Of a stretch of 64,000 nucleotides of DNA, positions 6,947 to 43,768 are shown piece after piece. Position numbers and translations under genes: made by a program. Below the pieces are notes generated by a model that saw only the letters and a list, made by a program, of their open reading frames with translations, had not been told where the DNA came from and searched no databases. The number at the start of each line of letters is the position of its first letter. The first letter of the stretch is position 1. Origin of the DNA: Streptomyces roseirectus. Its GTDB lineage: Bacteria; Actinomycetota; Actinomycetes; Streptomycetales; Streptomycetaceae. The stretch is from NCBI RefSeq assembly GCF_014489635.1, contig NZ_CP060828.1, forward strand, positions 6,098,001 to 6,162,000, written 5' to 3'.

Positions 6947-7881
6947 CACTGTTCCTTGTGGGAGAGGGCGCGGACGGTTCGGGACGGGCTGGGGCGGCCC
7001 AGATGACCGGCCATCCACGCGCTCGTGGCGACGAGGCGGCCGAGGTCGGTGCCGGTGTCGATCCCGAGGCCCTGGAGCATCCACACGAGGTCTTCGGTGG
7101 CGAGGTTCCCGGTGGCCGACCTGGCGAACGGGCAGCCGCCCAGGCCGCCCGCTGAGGCGTCGACGGTGGTGACGCCGTGCTGGAGCGCGGCCAGGGTGTT
7201 GGCGAGGGCCTGGCCGTACGTGTCGTGGAAGTGGACGGCCAGCGCGGGAGTGGGGACGCCGGCGTCGTTCAGGGCCGTCAGGAGGGCGCGTACGTGGCCC
7301 GCCGTCGCGACGCCGATCGTGTCGCCGAGGCTCAGCTCGTCGCAGCCCATGTCGTACAGGGCCTTGGCGACCCTGACGACCTGGGGGATCGGGACGGGGC
7401 CCTCCCAGGGGTCGCCGAAGCACATCGAGAGGTAGCCGCGGACGTGCGCCTGACGGTCCTTCGCCCGGGTGACGACCGGGTCGAACATCGCCAGGGACTC
7501 GTCGACCGTGCGGTTGAGGTTGGCCTTGGCGAAGGACTCCGTGACGCTGGCGAAGACGGCGATCCTGCGCGCGCCGAGGGCGAGGGCCCGGTCGAGGCCG
7601 CGGTCGTTGGGGACCAACACCGGCAGATCCACGGGGAGTTCGCTCACCCGCGGGAACAGGGCCTCCGCGTCCGCCAGTTGGGGGACCCACTCGGGGCGGA
7701 CGAAACTCGTCGCCTCGATGGTGGTCAGGCCCGCGTCCGCCAGGCGATGGATGAACTCCGCCTTGACCTCCGTCGGGACGGTCGTCTTCTCGTTCTGGAG
7801 GCCGTCCCTGGCGCCGACCTCGTGGATGCGGACGCGCGCGGGGAGGCCGTTCGCCGGGACCGTCATGGGGAGTTCAGGCAT
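6946..7881 (-). CDS. Hydroxymethylglutaryl-CoA lyase
   Basis: A 311-residue HMGL-like TIM-barrel lyase. The motifs [11 protein letters not shown] near the N-terminus, metal-binding [12 protein letters not shown], and GLGGCPFA with the catalytic cysteine are all present. It splits 3-hydroxy-3-methylglutaryl-CoA into acetoacetate and acetyl-CoA, the last step of leucine breakdown. The start MPELPMTV (7879-7881) has GAGGAGG about 6 bases upstream and overlaps the carboxylase alpha gene by 8 bp. An in-frame start 15 codons earlier lacks an RBS. Its presence supports methylcrotonyl-CoA as the substrate of the neighbouring carboxylase. Confidence 0.93.
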
Positions 7882-36683: not shown

Positions 36684-37496
36684 TCAGCCGCGCACCGCCC
36701 CCGCCGTCAGCCCCGACACGAAGTGCCGCTGGAGCAGCACGTACACGACGATCACCGGCACCGACGCGATCACCACCCCCGCGAACAGCAGGGGGTACTG
36801 GGTCTGAAACTCGCCCTGGAAGTCCAACAGGGCCAGCGGCAGCGTCCGTTGCTCGTGGGAGCGGATGAACAGAAGGGGATAGAGCAGGTCGTTCCAGTCC
36901 ATCACGAACAGGAAGATGCCCGTCGTCGCCAGCGCGGGACGCGTCAGCGGGAGCGTGAGGGACACGAACGACCGCAGCGGACCCGCGCCGTCCAACTCGG
37001 CCGCCTCGTACAGCTCTTCGGGGATTGTGCGCAGGAAACCGCCGAGGATGAACACGGCCGTCGGCAGCGTCATCGTGGTGTCGACGAGGACCAGCCCGAA
37101 CAGGCTGTCGGTGAGCCCGAGCCGGTCGAACAGGACGTACTGCGGGACGATCGCCGCCTGCGCGGGCACCGCGAGCCCCGCGACGAGGACACCGAACACG
37201 ATCCAGCCGACCCGCCCCGGCACCCGCGCGCAGAAGAACGCGGCGAGACTCGCGACGGCCAGCGTCAGCACGACCGCGCCCGCTGTGACGAGCACGCTGT
37301 TGCCGAACGCGGCCCCGAGCCCGCCCTCGTCGACCGCCCGCCGGTAGTTGTCCAGCGTCGGCGAACTCGGCGGCGACAGCGGCGAGTCGAAGAGCTGCGG
37401 CAGCGTCTTGAACGTGCCGAACACCACGACCAGCAACGGGACCACGACGGTCGCCGCGCCCAGCGTGAGTACCAGGGGTCGCAGGGTCTTCGTCAT
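36684..37496 (-). CDS. Carbohydrate-type ABC permease 2 (MalG-like)
   Basis: A 270-residue permease with 6 predicted helices. The EAA loop is EELYEAAELDGAGPLRSFVS followed by LTLPLTRPAL, as in the MalG family. The ATG at 37494-37496 overlaps the preceding permease stop as ATGA. Last gene of the ssuD-SBP-permease-permease unit. No ATPase gene is present, so a shared ATPase such as MsiK is presumed. Confidence 0.9.
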   Translation of the reverse strand: MTKTLRPLVLTLGAATVVVPLLVVVFGTFKTLPQLFDSPLSPPSSPTLDNYRRAVDEGGLGAAFGNSVLVTAGAVVLTLAVASLAAFFCARVPGRVGWIVFGVLVAGLAVPAQAAIVPQYVLFDRLGLTDSLFGLVLVDTTMTLPTAVFILGGFLRTIPEELYEAAELDGAGPLRSFVSLTLPLTRPALATTGIFLFVMDWNDLLYPLLFIRSHEQRTLPLALLDFQGEFQTQYPLLFAGVVIASVPVIVVYVLLQRHFVSGLTAGAVRG

Positions 37497-38386
37497 CGCG
37501 TCGCCCTCCGGATCGCCCGCCGCTGGACCCAGGTGAGCAGCGCGATGAGCGCCATGAACAGCAGGGACTGGGCGGCGGCATAGCCGAACTGGTTGTTGGA
37601 GAAGGTGGTGTAGACCCGCGTCGACAGCAAGTCCAGTGCCGGACCAGGGGGGTTGCCGCCGAGCCCGAGGACCAGATCGAACGCCTTGAAGGACTGCACG
37701 GTCGTGTAGGCGACGACGATCCCCGTCGCCGGAGCCACCAACGGCCAGGTGACATACCGGAACCGGGCCAGGCGCCCGGCGCCGTCCAGCTCGGCCGCCT
37801 CGTACAACTCCCGTGGGATCGCCTGGAGTCCGGCGATGAAGACGACCATCATCTGGCCCGCGTGGAACCACACCTGCGTGAGCGCCAGCCAGTACACCGC
37901 CGTGTCCGGGTTCCCCAGGTACACCGACTGGAGATTGCCCAACCCCACAGCACGAAGGCCCGAGTTGAGCAGCCCGCCGTCCGGGTCGTACACGAACCGC
38001 CACACGAACGCGACCGCCACCGACGACAGGACCGTCGGCAGGAAGAACAGTGCGCGCAGCACGGTCGAGGCGCGGGTCGTGCGCACCAGGTAGAGCGCCA
38101 GCAGCAGCGCCAGCGCCGTCTGGGCGAGGACGACCACCACCATCAGCTTCAGGTTGTTCTCCGCCGCGTTCCTGAACACGTCGTCGCCCGTGGCGAGTTG
38201 ACGGAAGTTGTCCAGGCCGACGCTGCGGTACGCCGCGCTGTAGCCGTCCCAGTCCGTCAGCGCGTACTGCACCGCCTGCACGGTCGGGTACGCGAAGAAG
38301 AACAGGTAGAGGGCCAGCGCGGGCACCGGGAAGAGCCACAGCGCCCGCGACGCGCGGCGGCTACGCGCGCTTCTGGTCGATGACAC
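37493..38386 (-). CDS. Carbohydrate-type ABC permease 1 (MalF-like)
   Basis: A 297-residue permease with 6 predicted helices, starting with a basic RSARSRRASRALWLFPVPAL. The EAA loop is RELYEAAELDGAGRLARFRY. It is the MalF/UgpA type used for sugars and glycerol phosphate. GTG 38386 has GGAGG 6 bases upstream and overlaps the end of the binding-protein gene by 26 bp, so coupling is likely. Confidence 0.9.
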   Translation of the reverse strand: MSSTRSARSRRASRALWLFPVPALALYLFFFAYPTVQAVQYALTDWDGYSAAYRSVGLDNFRQLATGDDVFRNAAENNLKLMVVVVLAQTALALLLALYLVRTTRASTVLRALFFLPTVLSSVAVAFVWRFVYDPDGGLLNSGLRAVGLGNLQSVYLGNPDTAVYWLALTQVWFHAGQMMVVFIAGLQAIPRELYEAAELDGAGRLARFRYVTWPLVAPATGIVVAYTTVQSFKAFDLVLGLGGNPPGPALDLLSTRVYTTFSNNQFGYAAAQSLLFMALIALLTWVQRRAIRRATR

Positions 38387-39662
38387 GCTGGGCCTCCTCG
38401 GCCGCCTGCGCCGGCTTCTTGCCCCCGACGACGGCCACGGCCGCGTTCTCGACGGCCGAGCGGATGTCGAGGTCCAGGAACTGGAAACGCGGCGCCAGCA
38501 GCGTCCTGCGCGCCAGCCACGGCGACACGGCCTTCAGGTCGGCGTTGGTGTACTCGACGCCCTCGACGGTGACGTGCTGCCCGGTGCCGTTCGCGTAGAC
38601 GGCCGCGTTCACCGGGTCGCTCAGGAACTCCAGGAACGCGTACGCCGCCGGCTGCGCCTTCGACGCGCTGTTCACGCCGAGGATGAACGTCGCGTTGAAC
38701 ACGCCCTCGTACTTCGCCTGTTGAGCCGTCGTCGTGATCGGCGCGACCAGGTCGAAGGGAAACTTCGCTCCCAGTGCCCGCACCCCGGCCATCTGGAAGG
38801 AGCCGGTCGCGAGCAGGCCCGCCTTGCCGGAGGCGAACAACTGCGTCACCGCGTCCGTCGTCGAACCGGTCGCGCGGTCCTGGAAGTACGGCGCCAACTG
38901 GGCGTACTGCTCAAGGGTCTTGAGGAACCAGTCGTCGGTCACCCGGTACACGCCCGACTCGATCTTCGTGAACATGTCGCCGCTCGGCGCGTTGTTCATG
39001 ACCATCGTGTTGAGCAACTGCCCCGCGTTCGCGGTGTCCCCGCCCGGCCAGGCGATCGGCGTGAACCCCTTCGCCTTGAGGTCGTCGAGGAGTTGCAGGA
39101 AGCCGTTCCAGTCCTTCGGCGCGCTCGTGTGCCCCGCCCTGTCGAGCGCGTCGGTGTTGGCGAGCGGCATGTTGAACACCAACTGGTAGGGCAGGCCGTA
39201 CTGTTGGCCCGCCTGCGCGCCCGGCGTCACCAGGCTCGCCCGGTACCTGCCGACCACGTCCGTGCCGGTGAGCGGCGCGTACACGCCCGCCTTCACGATC
39301 TGCTGGAACTGCGCTCCCCGGAACGCGGTGAACAGGTCACCCGTCTTCGAGCCCTGGATACGGCGCAGCGCCGTCGACTGGTAGTCGGCGGACGGGGAGA
39401 TGTCCTGCTCGACAGCGGCGTCCGGATGCTTCTTCACGAACGCCTTCACCAGCTCGGCTATCACCGCCTTGTCCTCGGCCCGCCAGTGGGCGAAGGACAC
39501 CGTGCCCTTGACGGCACCCGAAGTGGCCGGCGCCGAGGGGGAGTTGCCGGCCGCCGGCGAGGCGCCGCCCCCGCCCGGTCCGGCGCAGGCGGCGAGGCCC
39601 AGGCCCAGACCGGAGGCGGTGAACAGGCGCAGGGCGGCTCGTCTGTCGAGCGTACGGGACAT
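38361..39662 (-). CDS. Sugar-type ABC solute-binding lipoprotein
   Basis: A 433-residue extracellular binding protein of family 1 (MalE/UgpB type). The N-terminus has a twin-arginine-like DRRAALRLF and the lipobox LAAC at about residues 23-26. The body shows KGTVSFAHWRAEDKAVIAEL and DAAVEQDISPSADYQSTALR. The family usually binds sugars or sugar derivatives. It follows ssuD by 30 bp. Ligand unknown; with a desulfonating monooxygenase next to it, a sulfonated sugar is a candidate. Confidence 0.9.
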   Translation of the reverse strand: MSRTLDRRAALRLFTASGLGLGLAACAGPGGGGASPAAGNSPSAPATSGAVKGTVSFAHWRAEDKAVIAELVKAFVKKHPDAAVEQDISPSADYQSTALRRIQGSKTGDLFTAFRGAQFQQIVKAGVYAPLTGTDVVGRYRASLVTPGAQAGQQYGLPYQLVFNMPLANTDALDRAGHTSAPKDWNGFLQLLDDLKAKGFTPIAWPGGDTANAGQLLNTMVMNNAPSGDMFTKIESGVYRVTDDWFLKTLEQYAQLAPYFQDRATGSTTDAVTQLFASGKAGLLATGSFQMAGVRALGAKFPFDLVAPITTTAQQAKYEGVFNATFILGVNSASKAQPAAYAFLEFLSDPVNAAVYANGTGQHVTVEGVEYTNADLKAVSPWLARRTLLAPRFQFLDLDIRSAVENAAVAVVGGKKPAQAAEEAQRVIDQKRA

Positions 39663-39692
39663 GGCTCGGTTCTCTCTTCCGGTGAAGTCGGG

Positions 39693-40784
39693 TCAGGCAG
39701 TGGCGAGTTGGCGGGTGAGCAGCGGACGGACGCACTCCCCGAAGCGGATCGCCTCCTCCAGGTGCGGCTGCCCGGAGAGGATGAAGTGCTCGATGCCCAG
39801 CGCCGCGAACTCCTCGATGCGCTCGGCGACCTGCTCGTGGCTGCCGACCAGCGCGGTGCCCGCACCGGGCCGGACGAGCCCGAACCCGGCCCACAGGTTG
39901 GGGTGGATCTCCAGCCGGTCCGTGCGCCCGCCGCTGAGCGCGGCCATCGCCCGCTGCCCGGCCGACTCCGAGGCGCTGAACCGCTCGTGCGCGGCCCTGA
40001 TCGCGGCCGGGTCGAGGCCGGCCAGGATCCGGTCGGCCTCCGCCCACGCCTCGGCGGCGGTGTCGCGGCTGATGACGTGCAGCCGGATGCCGTACGACAG
40101 CTCACGCCCCTCGGCCGCCGCCAACTCCCCCACCCGGGCGATCTTCTGGGCGACCGCCGCCGGAGGCTCACCCCAAGTGAGGTACGTGTCCGCGTACTTG
40201 GCGGCCACCGGGAGCGCCGCCTGCGACGATCCGCCGAAGAACACCGGGGGTCGCTGGGCCGGGGGCCTGCGCAGCTGTCCGCCCGCGACCCGGTAGTGGG
40301 CGCCCTCGTAGTCGTACACCTCGCCCGCCCAGGCCGTCCGCAGCAGGTCCAGGAACTCGGCGGTGCGGCCGTAGCGTTCGTCGTGCGAGAGGAAGTCGCC
40401 GTACGCGCGCTGCTCGTCGGCGTCGGAGCCGGTGACGACGTTGAGCAGCAGGCGTCCGCCGGACAGGCGCTGGTAGGTCGCCGTCATCTGGGCGGCCAGC
40501 GGGGGTGCGATGACGCCGGGGCGGAACGCGACCAGGAACTTGAGCCGGGTGGTCTGCGGGATCAGCGCGGCCGTGGTGAGCCACGCGTCCTCGCAGTCGC
40601 TCCCCGTAGGGGTCAGCACGGCCTCGAACCCGGCCGACTCGGCGGCGCGGGCGACCTGCGCGAGGTAGTCCAGCGTCGGCGGGCGGGTGGTCGTACGGGA
40701 CTGGAGCGAGTCACGGGCGGTCACGCCGACCACGTCACGGTCGTCGCCCGTGGTGGGCAGGAACCAGTGCAGGCGCACGGTCAT
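39693..40784 (-). CDS. ssuD: SsuD-like FMNH2-dependent sulfonate monooxygenase
   Basis: A 363-residue LLM-class flavin monooxygenase. Its pattern closely follows alkanesulfonate monooxygenase SsuD: N-terminal HWFLPTTGDDRDV, TGSDCEDAWL with the conserved Cys, LVTGSD-type LNVVTGSDADE, YLTWGEPP, GIRLHVI with the active-site Arg/His, and EIHPNLWAGFGLVRPGAGTA. It would release sulfite from an organosulfonate. ATG 40784 has GGAG 5 bases upstream. No flavin reductase (SsuE) is nearby. A sulfur-type leader peptide gene lies 140 bp upstream, and a sugar-type importer, not SsuABC, follows. Confidence 0.88.
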   Translation of the reverse strand: MTVRLHWFLPTTGDDRDVVGVTARDSLQSRTTTRPPTLDYLAQVARAAESAGFEAVLTPTGSDCEDAWLTTAALIPQTTRLKFLVAFRPGVIAPPLAAQMTATYQRLSGGRLLLNVVTGSDADEQRAYGDFLSHDERYGRTAEFLDLLRTAWAGEVYDYEGAHYRVAGGQLRRPPAQRPPVFFGGSSQAALPVAAKYADTYLTWGEPPAAVAQKIARVGELAAAEGRELSYGIRLHVISRDTAAEAWAEADRILAGLDPAAIRAAHERFSASESAGQRAMAALSGGRTDRLEIHPNLWAGFGLVRPGAGTALVGSHEQVAERIEEFAALGIEHFILSGQPHLEEAIRFGECVRPLLTRQLATA

Positions 40785-40924
40785 GGGGTCTCCAGGGGGG
40801 AGGGAGTTCACCAAAGCGGATGCAACGTTGAATCAACGCCCGGCGAAGGTGGCGCGCAAGGGTACGGAGCGGAAGAACCAGGGGAAATGGGCGTCAAGGA
40901 AGGACGCGGAAGGGATGTGCGGGG

Positions 40925-40999
40925 TCAGCTACACAGCGCGGTGGCGACCCTGAGCAGGTCGACGTGCGCGCGCTTCACGAGCTCGACACCGGAATCCAT
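40925..40999 (-). CDS. Putative cis-acting leader peptide upstream of ssuD
   Basis: A 24-codon frame, ATG 40999 to TGA 40925, encodes MDSGVELVKRAHVDLLRVAT then ALCS. It fits the recurring actinobacterial leader-peptide pattern (RxHVDLxRxxSxxC near the C-terminus) that precedes sulfur-metabolism genes and is thought to sense cysteine supply during translation. It ends 140 bp before ssuD. There is almost no room between the -10 box and the ATG, so it is probably leaderless. Too short for standard gene calling. Confidence 0.78.
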   Translation of the reverse strand: MDSGVELVKRAHVDLLRVATALCS

Positions 41000-41005
41000 G
41001 GGCCG

Positions 41006-41023
41006 GGACTATACACACAGTCC
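41006..41023. promoter_or_regulatory. Promoter -10 and inverted repeat upstream of the leader peptide
   Basis: On the minus strand, TATAGT (41008-41013) is 8 bases from the leader ATG, fitting a leaderless transcript. It is embedded in GGACT-ATACACAC-AGTCC (41006-41023), a perfect 5-bp inverted repeat that could be an operator covering the -10. The -35 (TCGTCC, 17 bases further) is poor. Confidence 0.5.
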
Positions 41024-41081: not shown

Positions 41082-41146
41082 GGTACTACGGGTATGACGC
41101 GCGCCTGAGCCGCCTCAGGTACTACGGGTACTACGGGTACTACGGG
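41082..41146. repeat. GTACTACGG repeat cluster at the 3' end of the S37 peptidase gene
   Basis: GGTACTACGGG lies at 41082-41092, and three joined units at 41118-41146. The S37 stop codon (TAG, 41140-41142) lies inside the last unit, so the repeat supplies the stop. A small CCTGAG/CTCAGG hairpin (41104-41119) separates the two blocks. Confidence 0.9.
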
Positions 41147-42558
41147 CGCAGCGCCGGCTCCCGTTCGATGTCCCTGACATCCAGCTTCGCGTCGAACCTC
41201 GCCAGCGGCTTCGCCGCCGCCACGGCGCTCGCGGAGACACCGGCCCAGTCCAGGATGCGGGCGGTGGCGAACGCCTTCTCGTCGGGGACGAGACCGGCGA
41301 CGTTCGCGCCGTGGTTCAGACCGGGGGCGGTCATCACGTACGAGTCCTTCGCGCCCTTGCCGACCCGGAACGGCTCCGCGCCCCAGGGGTCGTTCTGGCC
41401 GTACACGAACAGCATCCGGTGGGCGTGGTGGCGCACCCAGTTGTCCACGTCGGCCATCGCGTACCGGTCGAACCTCGGGATGCGGATGCTGTCCGGCACG
41501 AAGTTCGCCGGCGGCTGGTAGCCGTAGCGGATGTACTTCCGCTCGATGTGCGGGAAGTGGATGGTGGGCGCCCCGAGCTGCGAGGCCGCCTGGAAGTAGT
41601 ACGGGGTGTACGGGGTGAGACCCTGGTCCGTGTAGAAGGAGAACCCGGAGATCGAGTCGACCGAGTTCCAGATCTCGTCGTCGGTCGCGTTCTTCGCGTC
41701 CGCCGGGACCGTGTCGCAGTCGGCGAGCAGGCTGTACTGCCAGAAGCCCCAGACGTAGTCGAGGACGACCGCCTCGTACGCCTTGTCGAGACTGCCGACG
41801 GTCGTGAAGGTGTAGCCGTTGTCGGCCGCGTACGCCGCGTACCGCTTCTCCAGCGTCTCCCGGCGCACCAGCGCCTCGCGCTGCACGCCGTTCAGCCGGT
41901 CGCGGCACTCCTTGGTGCCGACGGTCCGGAAGAACCGGTCGTACGCCGAATCCTCGTCGTTCACCACGTCGTTGGGCGCCACGTACGCGACGACGCCGTC
42001 CATGTCACGCGGGTAGAAACGCTCGTAGTAGGTGGCGGTCATGCCGCCCTTCGAACCGCCCGTGGAGATCCAGTTCTTGGGGTAGACCGGCTTCAACGCC
42101 TCGAAGATGCGGTGCTGGTCGCTGGCGGCCTGCCAGATCGTCAGCTTGCTCCAGTCGGCGGGCTCGGCCGGCCGGGACGGCGTGAAGTACCGGTATTCCA
42201 TGGAGACTTGGTTGCCGTCCACGATCTGGGTGGGCTCGCGGCGGCCCGGGTTCGTGGAGACGTTGTAGCCGCCCGTGTAGAAGACGGTCGGCCGGCTCAC
42301 GTCCTTGTGCAGCACCGTGATGCGCTGCTCGAAGGTGCCGGCGGAGGGGTGCCGGTGGTCGATCGGCTGGGTGTAGTTCAGCACGAAGAAGCGGTAACCG
42401 GGGTACGGCTTCTCCTGGACCAGACTCATGCCCGGGATCGACAGCAGCCGGTCCTTGATGTCGGTGGCCTCCGGTTCGGCGGCGGTCGCCGCCGTCGCCG
42501 TGCCCAGCGTGCTTATCAGCACCGTGAGCGCGAGCAGCCATCTGAGCGCCTTGCGCAT
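41140..42558 (-). CDS. Secreted S37-family (PS-10) aminopeptidase
   Basis: A 472-residue exported peptidase. The signal peptide MRKALRWLLALTVLISTLGT ends near ATAAEPE. The alpha/beta-hydrolase nucleophile elbow is STGGSKGGMTATYY; FVYGQNDPWGAEPF and PGLNHGANV supply the likely Asp and His. It matches the Streptomyces PS-10 peptidase S37 family, which removes amino-terminal (proline-type) peptides from extracellular protein. ATG 42558 follows GGAAGGG by about 9 bases. The stop codon is part of a 9-bp repeat unit. Confidence 0.87.
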   Translation of the reverse strand: MRKALRWLLALTVLISTLGTATAATAAEPEATDIKDRLLSIPGMSLVQEKPYPGYRFFVLNYTQPIDHRHPSAGTFEQRITVLHKDVSRPTVFYTGGYNVSTNPGRREPTQIVDGNQVSMEYRYFTPSRPAEPADWSKLTIWQAASDQHRIFEALKPVYPKNWISTGGSKGGMTATYYERFYPRDMDGVVAYVAPNDVVNDEDSAYDRFFRTVGTKECRDRLNGVQREALVRRETLEKRYAAYAADNGYTFTTVGSLDKAYEAVVLDYVWGFWQYSLLADCDTVPADAKNATDDEIWNSVDSISGFSFYTDQGLTPYTPYYFQAASQLGAPTIHFPHIERKYIRYGYQPPANFVPDSIRIPRFDRYAMADVDNWVRHHAHRMLFVYGQNDPWGAEPFRVGKGAKDSYVMTAPGLNHGANVAGLVPDEKAFATARILDWAGVSASAVAAAKPLARFDAKLDVRDIEREPALRP

Positions 42559-42766: not shown

Positions 42767-43768
42767 TCACCCGCTCTCCCGCACCACCAGCCGGTACCCC
42801 GCCACCAGCAACGACGCCCGGTCCGCCCCCGCTATCCCGCTCAGCAGCGACGTCACGGCCAGCCGCGCCAGTTCGGACTTGTCGGGGGCGACGGTGGTCA
42901 GCGGGGGAGCGGTGTAGCGGGCCGCCTCGACGTCGTCGAAACCGATGACCGCGAGGTCTTCCGGAACCCGCACCCCCCGCTCCCGGGCCGCGTGCAGCGC
43001 CCCTTCGGCGAGCGCGTCCGCGAAACAGAAGACGGCGTCGGGGAGTTGGGGCAGCGCCAGCAGAGCGCGCAGCGCGGCGGCGCCCGACGCGCGGTCGTAC
43101 GCGGGGACGGGCGGCGCCAGCGCCTCGTCGTACGGGACGGCGAACTCCGCCAACGCCCTTAGATAGCCCCGGAGTCGGGTCGCCGAGGTCGCCGCGTGCG
43201 GGGTGGTCTGGCGGCCGATGACGGCGATCCGGCGCCGCCCGCGCGCCAGCAGCCGGACGGTCGCCTCCCGCGCGGCGGCCGTGTTGTCGATGGTGACGTG
43301 CGGATGGGGAAGGTCGTGCAGCCGCTCGCCCAGCAGCACAAGCGGCTTGCTGCGCAAGGCCGTTGACGCCCGCACGTCGTCCAGTGCGAGCGGGCTGAGG
43401 ATGACCCCGTCGACCATCGGGTCGGTGCGGCCCAGCGCGATCTCCAGCTCCGCCCCGGGCGCACCGCCCGTCGCCTCGACGAGGAGAGTGCAGCCGTGGG
43501 CCGCCGCCTCCCGCAGGACGTGCCCGGCGAGTTCGGCGAAGTACGGCATCGACAGATCGGGCACCGCCAGCAGCAGCACCCCGCTGCGGCCGGTGCGCAG
43601 CCGCCGGGCCGCGGTGTTGGGCCGGTACCCCAACTCCTCGACGGCGCGGGCGACTTTCTCCCGCGTCGCCTCCGAGAAACGGCCCGTGCCGCGGACCACG
43701 TTCGACACGGTCCGCATCGACACTCCGGCCCGCTCGGCCACCTCCCTCAGCCCGATCCCCGCGCGCAT
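42767..43768 (-). CDS. LacI-family transcriptional regulator
   Basis: A 333-residue LacI protein. The N-terminal HTH is GLREVAERAGVSMRTVSNVV followed by the hinge RPNTAARRLRTGRSG; a periplasmic-binding-like sugar-sensing domain follows (VDGVILSPLALDDVR, VIGFDDVEAARYTAPPLTTV). It stands alone between the S37 peptidase and a LysR gene, so its target is unclear. The nearest sugar transporter is the ssuD-linked importer, 3 kb away across a terminator. Low-complexity ACCCGCCCGC runs lie just past its stop (about 42,720-42,780). Confidence 0.88.
   Translation of the reverse strand: MRAGIGLREVAERAGVSMRTVSNVVRGTGRFSEATREKVARAVEELGYRPNTAARRLRTGRSGVLLLAVPDLSMPYFAELAGHVLREAAAHGCTLLVEATGGAPGAELEIALGRTDPMVDGVILSPLALDDVRASTALRSKPLVLLGERLHDLPHPHVTIDNTAAAREATVRLLARGRRRIAVIGRQTTPHAATSATRLRGYLRALAEFAVPYDEALAPPVPAYDRASGAAALRALLALPQLPDAVFCFADALAEGALHAARERGVRVPEDLAVIGFDDVEAARYTAPPLTTVAPDKSELARLAVTSLLSGIAGADRASLLVAGYRLVVRESG

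Follow-up and report, generated by a model that had tools for sequence, protein, structure and literature searches.

Why should a sugar-type ABC importer be encoded together with a monooxygenase resembling SsuD of alkanesulfonate scavenging, behind a leader peptide of the kind that precedes sulfur genes? The question is raised by a four-gene unit of Streptomyces roseirectus, which lies in a window of 64,000 nucleotides (nt); the window is the whole stretch of DNA analyzed, and its positions serve as coordinates (L and G numbers denote relative loci and genomes, respectively). On the minus strand, a 24-codon leader peptide (40925..40999) is followed by genes for an LLM-class monooxygenase of the SsuD/MsuD lineage (39693..40784; PF00296, 248 bits; TIGR03565, 445.5 bits), a MalE/CUT1-type substrate-binding lipoprotein (38361..39662; PF01547/PF13416), a MalF-type permease (37493..38386; PF00528), and a MalG-type permease (36684..37505; PF00528). 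This layout, including its coordinates and the coupling of most of the genes, had been proposed in a first-pass annotation, and the profile scores confirm it. The binding-protein gene overlaps at its end with the first permease gene, which in turn overlaps the second, and the binding protein has an N-terminus that by eye looks like a twin-arginine or lipoprotein signal. In our view the unit is, with a probability of roughly two-thirds, an operon that scavenges sulfur from a sulfonated sugar, the likeliest candidates being sulfoquinovose (SQ) and short SQ glycosides such as SQ-glycerol. The import and desulfonation of such a sugar under translation-linked sulfur control was also the idea of the first-pass annotation, and it gains support from the clade of sulfo-EMP-linked transporters in which the importer falls, from three published contigs among its relatives, and from the occurrence of the leader family ahead of sulfur genes.

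A scan with the binding protein, taking one genome per species, yielded 79 relative loci, and tblastn matched both permeases in all of them. In 45, the gene directly upstream is SsuD-like (9 Streptomycetaceae, 7 Actinoplanes/Paractinoplanes, and 29 Bacillota, the last comprising 28 Paenibacillus loci, many near-identical, and 1 Metabacillus locus). Because the four-gene order is kept in these 45 loci, which span two phyla, and because 8 of the 9 other Streptomycetaceae copies have the leader ahead of the monooxygenase, the gene order is not a product of chance. That a sugar importer merely came to lie beside an unrelated monooxygenase is scarcely credible; 10 of the 79 loci, in which the importer has no recognized sulfur partner (L042, L043, L044, L061, L062, L067, L069, L070, L074, and L077), speak for such an accident, but the conserved order speaks against it, as does a control set of seven distant sugar-binding paralogues of the host, none of which has a monooxygenase or isomerase within about 1.5 kb.

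Genes of the sulfo-EMP pathway for SQ accompany the importer at 23 of the 79 loci. The gene families were annotated on L041 and L045, and tblastn (1e-8) placed a DeoC/LacD-type aldolase at 23/23 of these loci, a DeoR regulator likewise at 23/23, a PfkB kinase at 20/23, an aldehyde dehydrogenase and TauE at 18/23 each, a GH31 enzyme at 17/23, and a relative of the isomerase SftI at 16/23. The SftI-like isomerase scored 289 bits on NF048012, under the cut-off of 700, and it adjoins the binding protein in two further genomes, G171 and G085, whose binding proteins are 51% and 61% identical, respectively. The GH31 enzyme (L041 10111-12348 and relatives) is nearest to the alpha-xylosidase model PRK10658 (463.6 bits versus a cut-off of 606) and not to YihQ, and the GH31 of actinobacterial sulfo-EMP operons may represent an unrecognized type of sulfoquinovosidase. 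At a single locus of the 79, in Enemella dayhoffiae (L057 5933-6850), a TauD-family dioxygenase is encoded directly upstream of the importer and is possibly another kind of C-S cleaving partner. Three of the loci (L066, L068, and L076) are contigs PCPR01000010, LNUV01000003, and SIHX01000007 of a published figure of sulfo-EMP operons (Fig. 4, PMC8873060); the authors of that paper suggest, as an untested idea, that SQ or SQ glycosides enter through the binding protein and its ABC system. Arthrobacter AK01 is described as able to grow on SQ and on SQ-glycerol, and its sulfo-EMP enzymes increase on SQ (PMC10755693).

The tree of the binding proteins is consistent with this synteny. It included 60 of 80 sequences, leaving out 20 of the 28 Paenibacillus rows, and was rooted at its midpoint; like the other trees, it came from a quick search with Shimodaira-Hasegawa-like approximate likelihood ratio (SH-aLRT) support. 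Streptomycetaceae and Actinoplanes rows linked to a monooxygenase fell into one group of 22 rows (17 linked and 5 partnerless; SH-aLRT 97), this group shared a fork with 11 sulfo-EMP-linked rows (82), and the actinobacterial and Bacillota rows were split at 100. The monooxygenase-linked actinobacterial binding proteins thus appear nested among sulfo-EMP-linked branches, a placement that is moderately supported, since the enclosing fork has a support of 82 and the root is a midpoint. Because of the synteny with sulfo-EMP operons and this position in the tree, the importer probably carries SQ or an SQ glycoside. One observation weighs against a simple reading of this kind: the neighbors of a relative with 41% identity (L171) resemble sugar kinases by eye and include no sulfur partner; therefore, the SQ inference is not to be extended over the whole binding-protein family. 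The system is rare: within the genus, 4 of 392 genomes have a match at E 1e-90, and within the phylum 4 of 296 do (the host counted in both). A fold comparison meant to find a sulfonate pocket, proposed earlier as a check, was not telling: the model is good (pLDDT 89.3), but its fold, shared with SmoF, is not distinctive, as SmoF ranked 48-49 in the VIA list, was not in Foldseek's best 50, and did not stand out from other sugar binders.

The monooxygenase is SsuD-like, yet it lies under the SsuD equivalog line, with 445.5 bits against a TIGR03565 cut-off of 518.2 and 456 bits against 510 for PRK00719. Its nearest solved structures are 7jv3 (E 1e-120), which we take to be MsuD, and then E. coli SsuD (about 1e-106), followed at a lower rank by 7olf (1e-51) and 7oh2 (5e-50), presumably both the sulfoquinovose monooxygenase SmoC. 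Identity is 56% to MsuD and 52% to SsuD versus 34 to 35% to the two SmoC chains, and long branches separate the enzyme from SmoC in a tree with SmoC as the outgroup. Kinship with SmoC/SquD is ruled out on these grounds, and by sequence comparison the enzyme is a member of the SsuD/MsuD lineage; of the two relationships that the first-pass annotation had left to phylogeny, the one with SsuD held and the one with SmoC did not. Of the active-site residues of E. coli SsuD, C54, W196, R226, H228, R297, and H333 are kept, and Gln replaces Y331. The replacement was considered as a sign of changed substrate and is not diagnostic, since position 331 is Q in 51, Y in 31, and H in 16 of 98 further relatives. 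Among the best 120 of 7987 protein matches, 21 are 79 to 95% identical over nearly their full length, after which identity drops to about 69%, and all named organisms among these 21 are Streptomyces. The host genome encodes two more SsuD-like paralogues (62% and 56%).

The kinship with MsuD and SsuD and the six kept residues fit a second explanation, in which the unit serves ordinary alkanesulfonate or methanesulfonate scavenging through an SsuD-like enzyme and an unusual importer that is not sugar specific. We consider this quite improbable, because the importer is of the CUT1 sugar type common to SQ operons and because the host already has SsuC/SsuB-like genes with a leader of their own, as well as the two SsuD-like paralogues.

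A single origin of the monooxygenases linked to the importer was rejected by an approximately unbiased (AU) test (p 0.0008), in which the group comprised 26 of 52 rows, namely, 23 linked enzymes and three rows placed within or next to them (P0020, P0021, and P0086), with the Metabacillus copy (L079) left out. The tree program flagged the long Paenibacillus and SmoC branches, and the rejection may therefore be in part a long-branch effect. The Streptomycetaceae and Actinoplanes monooxygenases as one clade (19 rows) were not rejected (p 0.115). Given that the three groups of linked monooxygenases are not united in a single clade, more than one C-S cleaving enzyme has probably become attached to the importer. 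In Metabacillus kandeliae (L079 4604-6938), a tandem pair of SsuD-like genes lies ahead of the importer, and the copy compared is closer to MsuD/SsuD (57 to 60%) than to the Paenibacillus monooxygenases (about 40%).

The same test bears on a third explanation, that the unit scavenges sulfur from another sulfonated sugar or polyol, such as sulfofucose, rather than from SQ. The absence of a single monooxygenase clade means that the ligand may vary between groups, the binding-protein clade is defined by neighbors rather than by ligand, and identity to the 16 aligned sulfo-EMP-linked binding proteins is only 49 to 63%. Against it stand the position of the actinobacterial monooxygenase-linked binding proteins among sulfo-EMP-linked branches and the abundance of SQ as a sulfosugar of plant matter, as given in a review (PMC12890257), and we consider a sugar other than SQ unlikely. 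A broader proposal, to which we give somewhat less than even odds, is that Gram-positive bacteria have a separate way of using SQ, in which one conserved sulfosugar importer has been paired on more than one occasion with different enzymes for C-S cleavage (SsuD/MsuD type in Actinobacteria, a divergent SsuD type in Paenibacillus, and a TauD type in Enemella). This use would be run for sulfur and not for carbon, with control by a Cys leader in Streptomycetaceae, and perhaps on intact SQ glycosides, as no sulfoquinovosidase was identified.

The leader adds evidence for a sulfur function. Its open reading frame (40999-40925, minus strand) translates as MDSGVELVKRAHVDLLRVATALCS, contains the motif HVDLLR..xALC with a single Cys (codon TGT) and no Cys tract, and scores 33.9 bits against NF042934, the NCBI model of putative leader peptides (cis_reg_atten), whose curated cut-off is 27. 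It is present in 9 of the 10 Streptomycetaceae copies of the monooxygenase type, the window included, so that the conservation in relatives on which the earlier interpretation depended is found in 8 of the other 9. In Streptomyces fumigatiscleroticus (L040 5350-5830), the leader and its promoter have been lost, and the operon and its operator (described below) are retained. An HVDL-type expression applied to the plus strand up to position 7200, which would miss other types of element, found no leader in any of the 7 Actinoplanes copies, the 29 Bacillota copies, or the 34 loci that lack a monooxygenase, including 3 Streptomyces sulfo-EMP operons. In the host genome, where 150 of 318 candidates were scored, at least 8 leaders exceed the NF042934 cut-off; they precede a cysteine dioxygenase gene, a NirA/sulfite-reductase-family gene, the operon itself, an SsuD paralogue, SsuC/SsuB-like transport genes, a rhodanese-domain gene, a small gene followed by cysteine synthase, and a GST-domain gene. 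The notion that Cys-containing leaders mark sulfur genes is thus borne out for most of the leaders above the cut-off in this genome. Candidates below it include three that lie before an amino-acid-type ABC permease (L019, 26.4 bits), a Peripla_BP_4 gene (L020, 22.9 bits), and a Flavin_Reduct-domain gene (L021 926-1435; 20.9 bits, HVDL type).

A -10 box, TATAGT (41008..41013, minus strand), precedes the leader, and TGTGTATAGTC, with 8 nt from TATAGT to ATGG, is identical in all nine leader-bearing copies (the window, L033-L039, and L109). This promoter pattern occurs once in the window versus 0.01 expected, and a sigma-70 scan gave no match; farther upstream of the -10 box, the alignment is clear only among the window, L033, L034, and L037. 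Because only 8 nt separate the -10 box from the ATG, we infer a leaderless transcript, which fits the report (PMC8079986) that 17% of transcripts in Streptomyces lividans are leaderless, with a general -10 box of TAnnnT.

The codon of the motif Cys is invariant. In a set of 29 loci (L136-L164) drawn from 31 genomes of the same order, the motif was located in 26 leaders; in these, the motif Cys (position 12, numbered from the HVDL His) is TGT without exception, whereas 25 of the 27 other Cys codons from that His onward are TGC. Likewise, in the host genome the motif Cys is TGT in all 7 motif-bearing candidates (L011-L015, L017, and L021; position 12, or 13 in L021), the other Cys codons from the motif His onward are TGC (6/6), and a single Cys ahead of the L011 motif is encoded by TGT. 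Of 31 pooled distinct leaders, 30 have Cys at position 12, every one of them TGT, many of the leader rows being orthologues and thus not independent; the genes of nine Streptomycetaceae loci use TGC 161 times and TGT 13 times. Since Ser9 (AGC in 19/20) and Val2 (GTC in 21/23) are biased as well, a constraint at the nucleotide level is possible besides an effect of a slow codon. This regularity was not found in the partial literature searched, with searches not aimed at the TGT codon.

Past the leader stop, an 80-nt stretch (40845..40924, minus strand) is pyrimidine rich and G poor and is a candidate Rho-type loading site. Its pyrimidine content of 78% and C/G ratio of 3.33 place it in the top 0.01% and 0.2%, respectively, among 80-nt windows in the loci compared; the relatives are uneven, the C/G ratio being weaker in L036-L038 and the pyrimidine content weaker in L038 and L109. 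No intrinsic-terminator-like site was detected on the operon strand between 36000 and 44000, and RNA folding from the leader to the start codon is unremarkable (z -0.27). A Rho-dependent or translational mechanism appears for these reasons more likely than a hairpin attenuator. No riboswitch scored over threshold in the window, and a scan of 9 of the 79 relative loci gave one SAM-IV riboswitch, in L039, far from the unit.

A LacI-type operator-like palindrome, TTCAACGTTGCA (40821..40832, minus strand), lies between the leader and the monooxygenase gene and is exact in 7 of the 10 Streptomycetaceae copies (the window, L033-L037, and L040). Its candidate binder is a LacI-family regulator encoded at 42767..43768 (minus strand; PF00356/PF13377), relatives of which (74 to 90%) lie near the operon in L033, L035, L036, and L040; all four, like the window, have the operator. 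The operator is also present without a LacI-family gene in the examined DNA of L034, a short contig, and L037. This co-occurrence suggests a local, substrate-responsive LacI-type repressor as a second control. The palindromic pattern TKCAACGTTGMA occurs at a single site in the 9.95-Mb genome and hence does not point to further members of a regulon.

The first-pass annotation had listed an ATPase, a flavin reductase, and a sulfoquinovosidase as absent from the unit; genes for the first two were found elsewhere in the genome, and no sulfoquinovosidase was identified. An ATPase gene of the host has an OB_MalK domain (47.3 bits) and an Rfam msiK RNA at its start (59.1 bits versus a threshold of 33), which identify it as MsiK. 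The unit itself encodes an SBP_bac_1 protein and two BPD_transp_1 permeases and no ATPase, and with MsiK in the genome this is the pattern of CUT1 importers served by MsiK; the shared MsiK is, by this gene content, most likely the ATPase of the importer. Flavin reductase genes comprise an FMN_red gene beside an SsuD-like paralogue at 9.43 Mb and the Flavin_Reduct-domain gene behind the L021 leader, the latter being a candidate source of reduced flavin mononucleotide (FMNH2) for the monooxygenases. In the search for a sulfoquinovosidase, the YihQ model found three GH31 genes in the host genome, all below the cut-off, a negative result that says little because the E. coli control also failed the same cut-off. 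The best match in the host genome to the GH31 of the sulfo-EMP loci was 41%, and that to an IolG-like gene of Arthrobacter (L068), a query SqgA-like by kind and place only, was 32%. An SftI-like isomerase query, run without a positive control and with the YihS type not searched for, had no match in the host genome.

These searches bear on a fourth explanation, full sulfo-ASMO-like carbon use, in which the aldehyde would be reduced to glucose and the unit would supply both carbon and sulfur. Its first step would be the same chemistry as in sulfo-ASMO, as set out in PMC12890257, and the LacI-type operator hints at carbon-type induction. The four-gene unit, however, contains no 6-dehydroglucose reductase (SquF/SmoB type; not searched for elsewhere) and no sulfoquinovosidase, and a sulfur-type leader stands ahead of it, which makes this explanation very improbable. 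The sulfo-EMP set (SQ isomerase, sulfofructose kinase, and sulfofructose phosphate aldolase) is likewise absent from the unit.

If the operon scavenges sulfur from SQ, the lipoprotein and two permeases, powered by the shared MsiK, would import SQ or an SQ glycoside, and a flavin reductase encoded elsewhere would supply FMNH2 to the monooxygenase. The enzyme would oxidize the CH2-SO3 carbon to release an aldehyde and sulfite, and the sulfite would pass to the sulfite reductase and cysteine synthase of the host. When charged tRNA-Cys is low, ribosomes would pause at the TGT of the leaderless leader and downstream expression would rise, and the LacI-type regulator would add induction by substrate. 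A ribosome-pausing mechanism was reportedly described for mycobacterial Cys leader attenuators by Canestrari et al. in 2020. Cysteine supply has been proposed to affect ribosomes on Cys-rich leaderless upstream open reading frames of mycobacteria (PMC4633059). The present leader resembles these in being a short, leaderless-type upstream frame before a sulfur operon with Cys near its end; it differs in having one Cys within a conserved HVDLxR..xAxC motif instead of a Cys tract.

The operon also resembles known sulfonate pathways in some features. With the sulfo-ASMO/sulfo-SMO route of Agrobacterium and Novosphingobium (SmoC/SquD), it shares a C-S cleaving, flavin-dependent LLM-class monooxygenase and, in the case of Agrobacterium (PMC8873060), an ABC importer whose binding protein is of the sugar type. 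In contrast to that route, it has an enzyme of the SsuD/MsuD lineage, leader control, no reductase or sulfoquinovosidase in the unit, and Gram-positive hosts; a 2026 review places the C-S cleaving monooxygenase pathway mainly in alpha- and betaproteobacteria and treats most SQ pathways as carbon routes ending in short sulfonates (PMC12890257). The binding protein, MalF, and MalG are homologous to those of actinobacterial sulfo-EMP operons (Arthrobacter AK01/AK04; PMC8873060), whereas one monooxygenase stands in place of the kinase, aldolase, isomerase, aldehyde dehydrogenase, and TauE, and a sulfur leader and LacI-type gene occur instead of a DeoR-type gene. It has the monooxygenase lineage and presumed sulfur-starvation role of SsuEADCB/MsuD alkanesulfonate scavenging, with a sugar-type importer instead of SsuABC and a score under the SsuD equivalog cut-off.

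No published account of such a Streptomyces operon was found among titles and the opening lines of abstracts, a weak negative as most subscription journals lie outside the coverage; within that limit, we found no earlier description of sulfur-feeding use of SQ in Streptomyces. If correct, our proposal would describe a compact four-gene route that brings the sulfur of plant sulfolipids into the biomass of Gram-positive bacteria (soil Streptomyces, Actinoplanes, and Paenibacillus), would assign a substrate to genes that adjoin a sugar transporter and carry just the name "alkanesulfonate monooxygenase" or "LLM class oxidoreductase," and would offer a clean single-Cys case on which to test how leader peptides control sulfur genes.

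Between the LacI-family gene and the leader lies a gene annotated by its domain as a PS-10/S37 peptidase (41140-42558, minus strand), and L033, L034, and L037 likewise have an S37 peptidase gene upstream of the operon. At the end of the peptidase gene in the window, there is a perfect 9-bp tandem repeat, GGTACTACG, of 3.2 copies (41118-41146).

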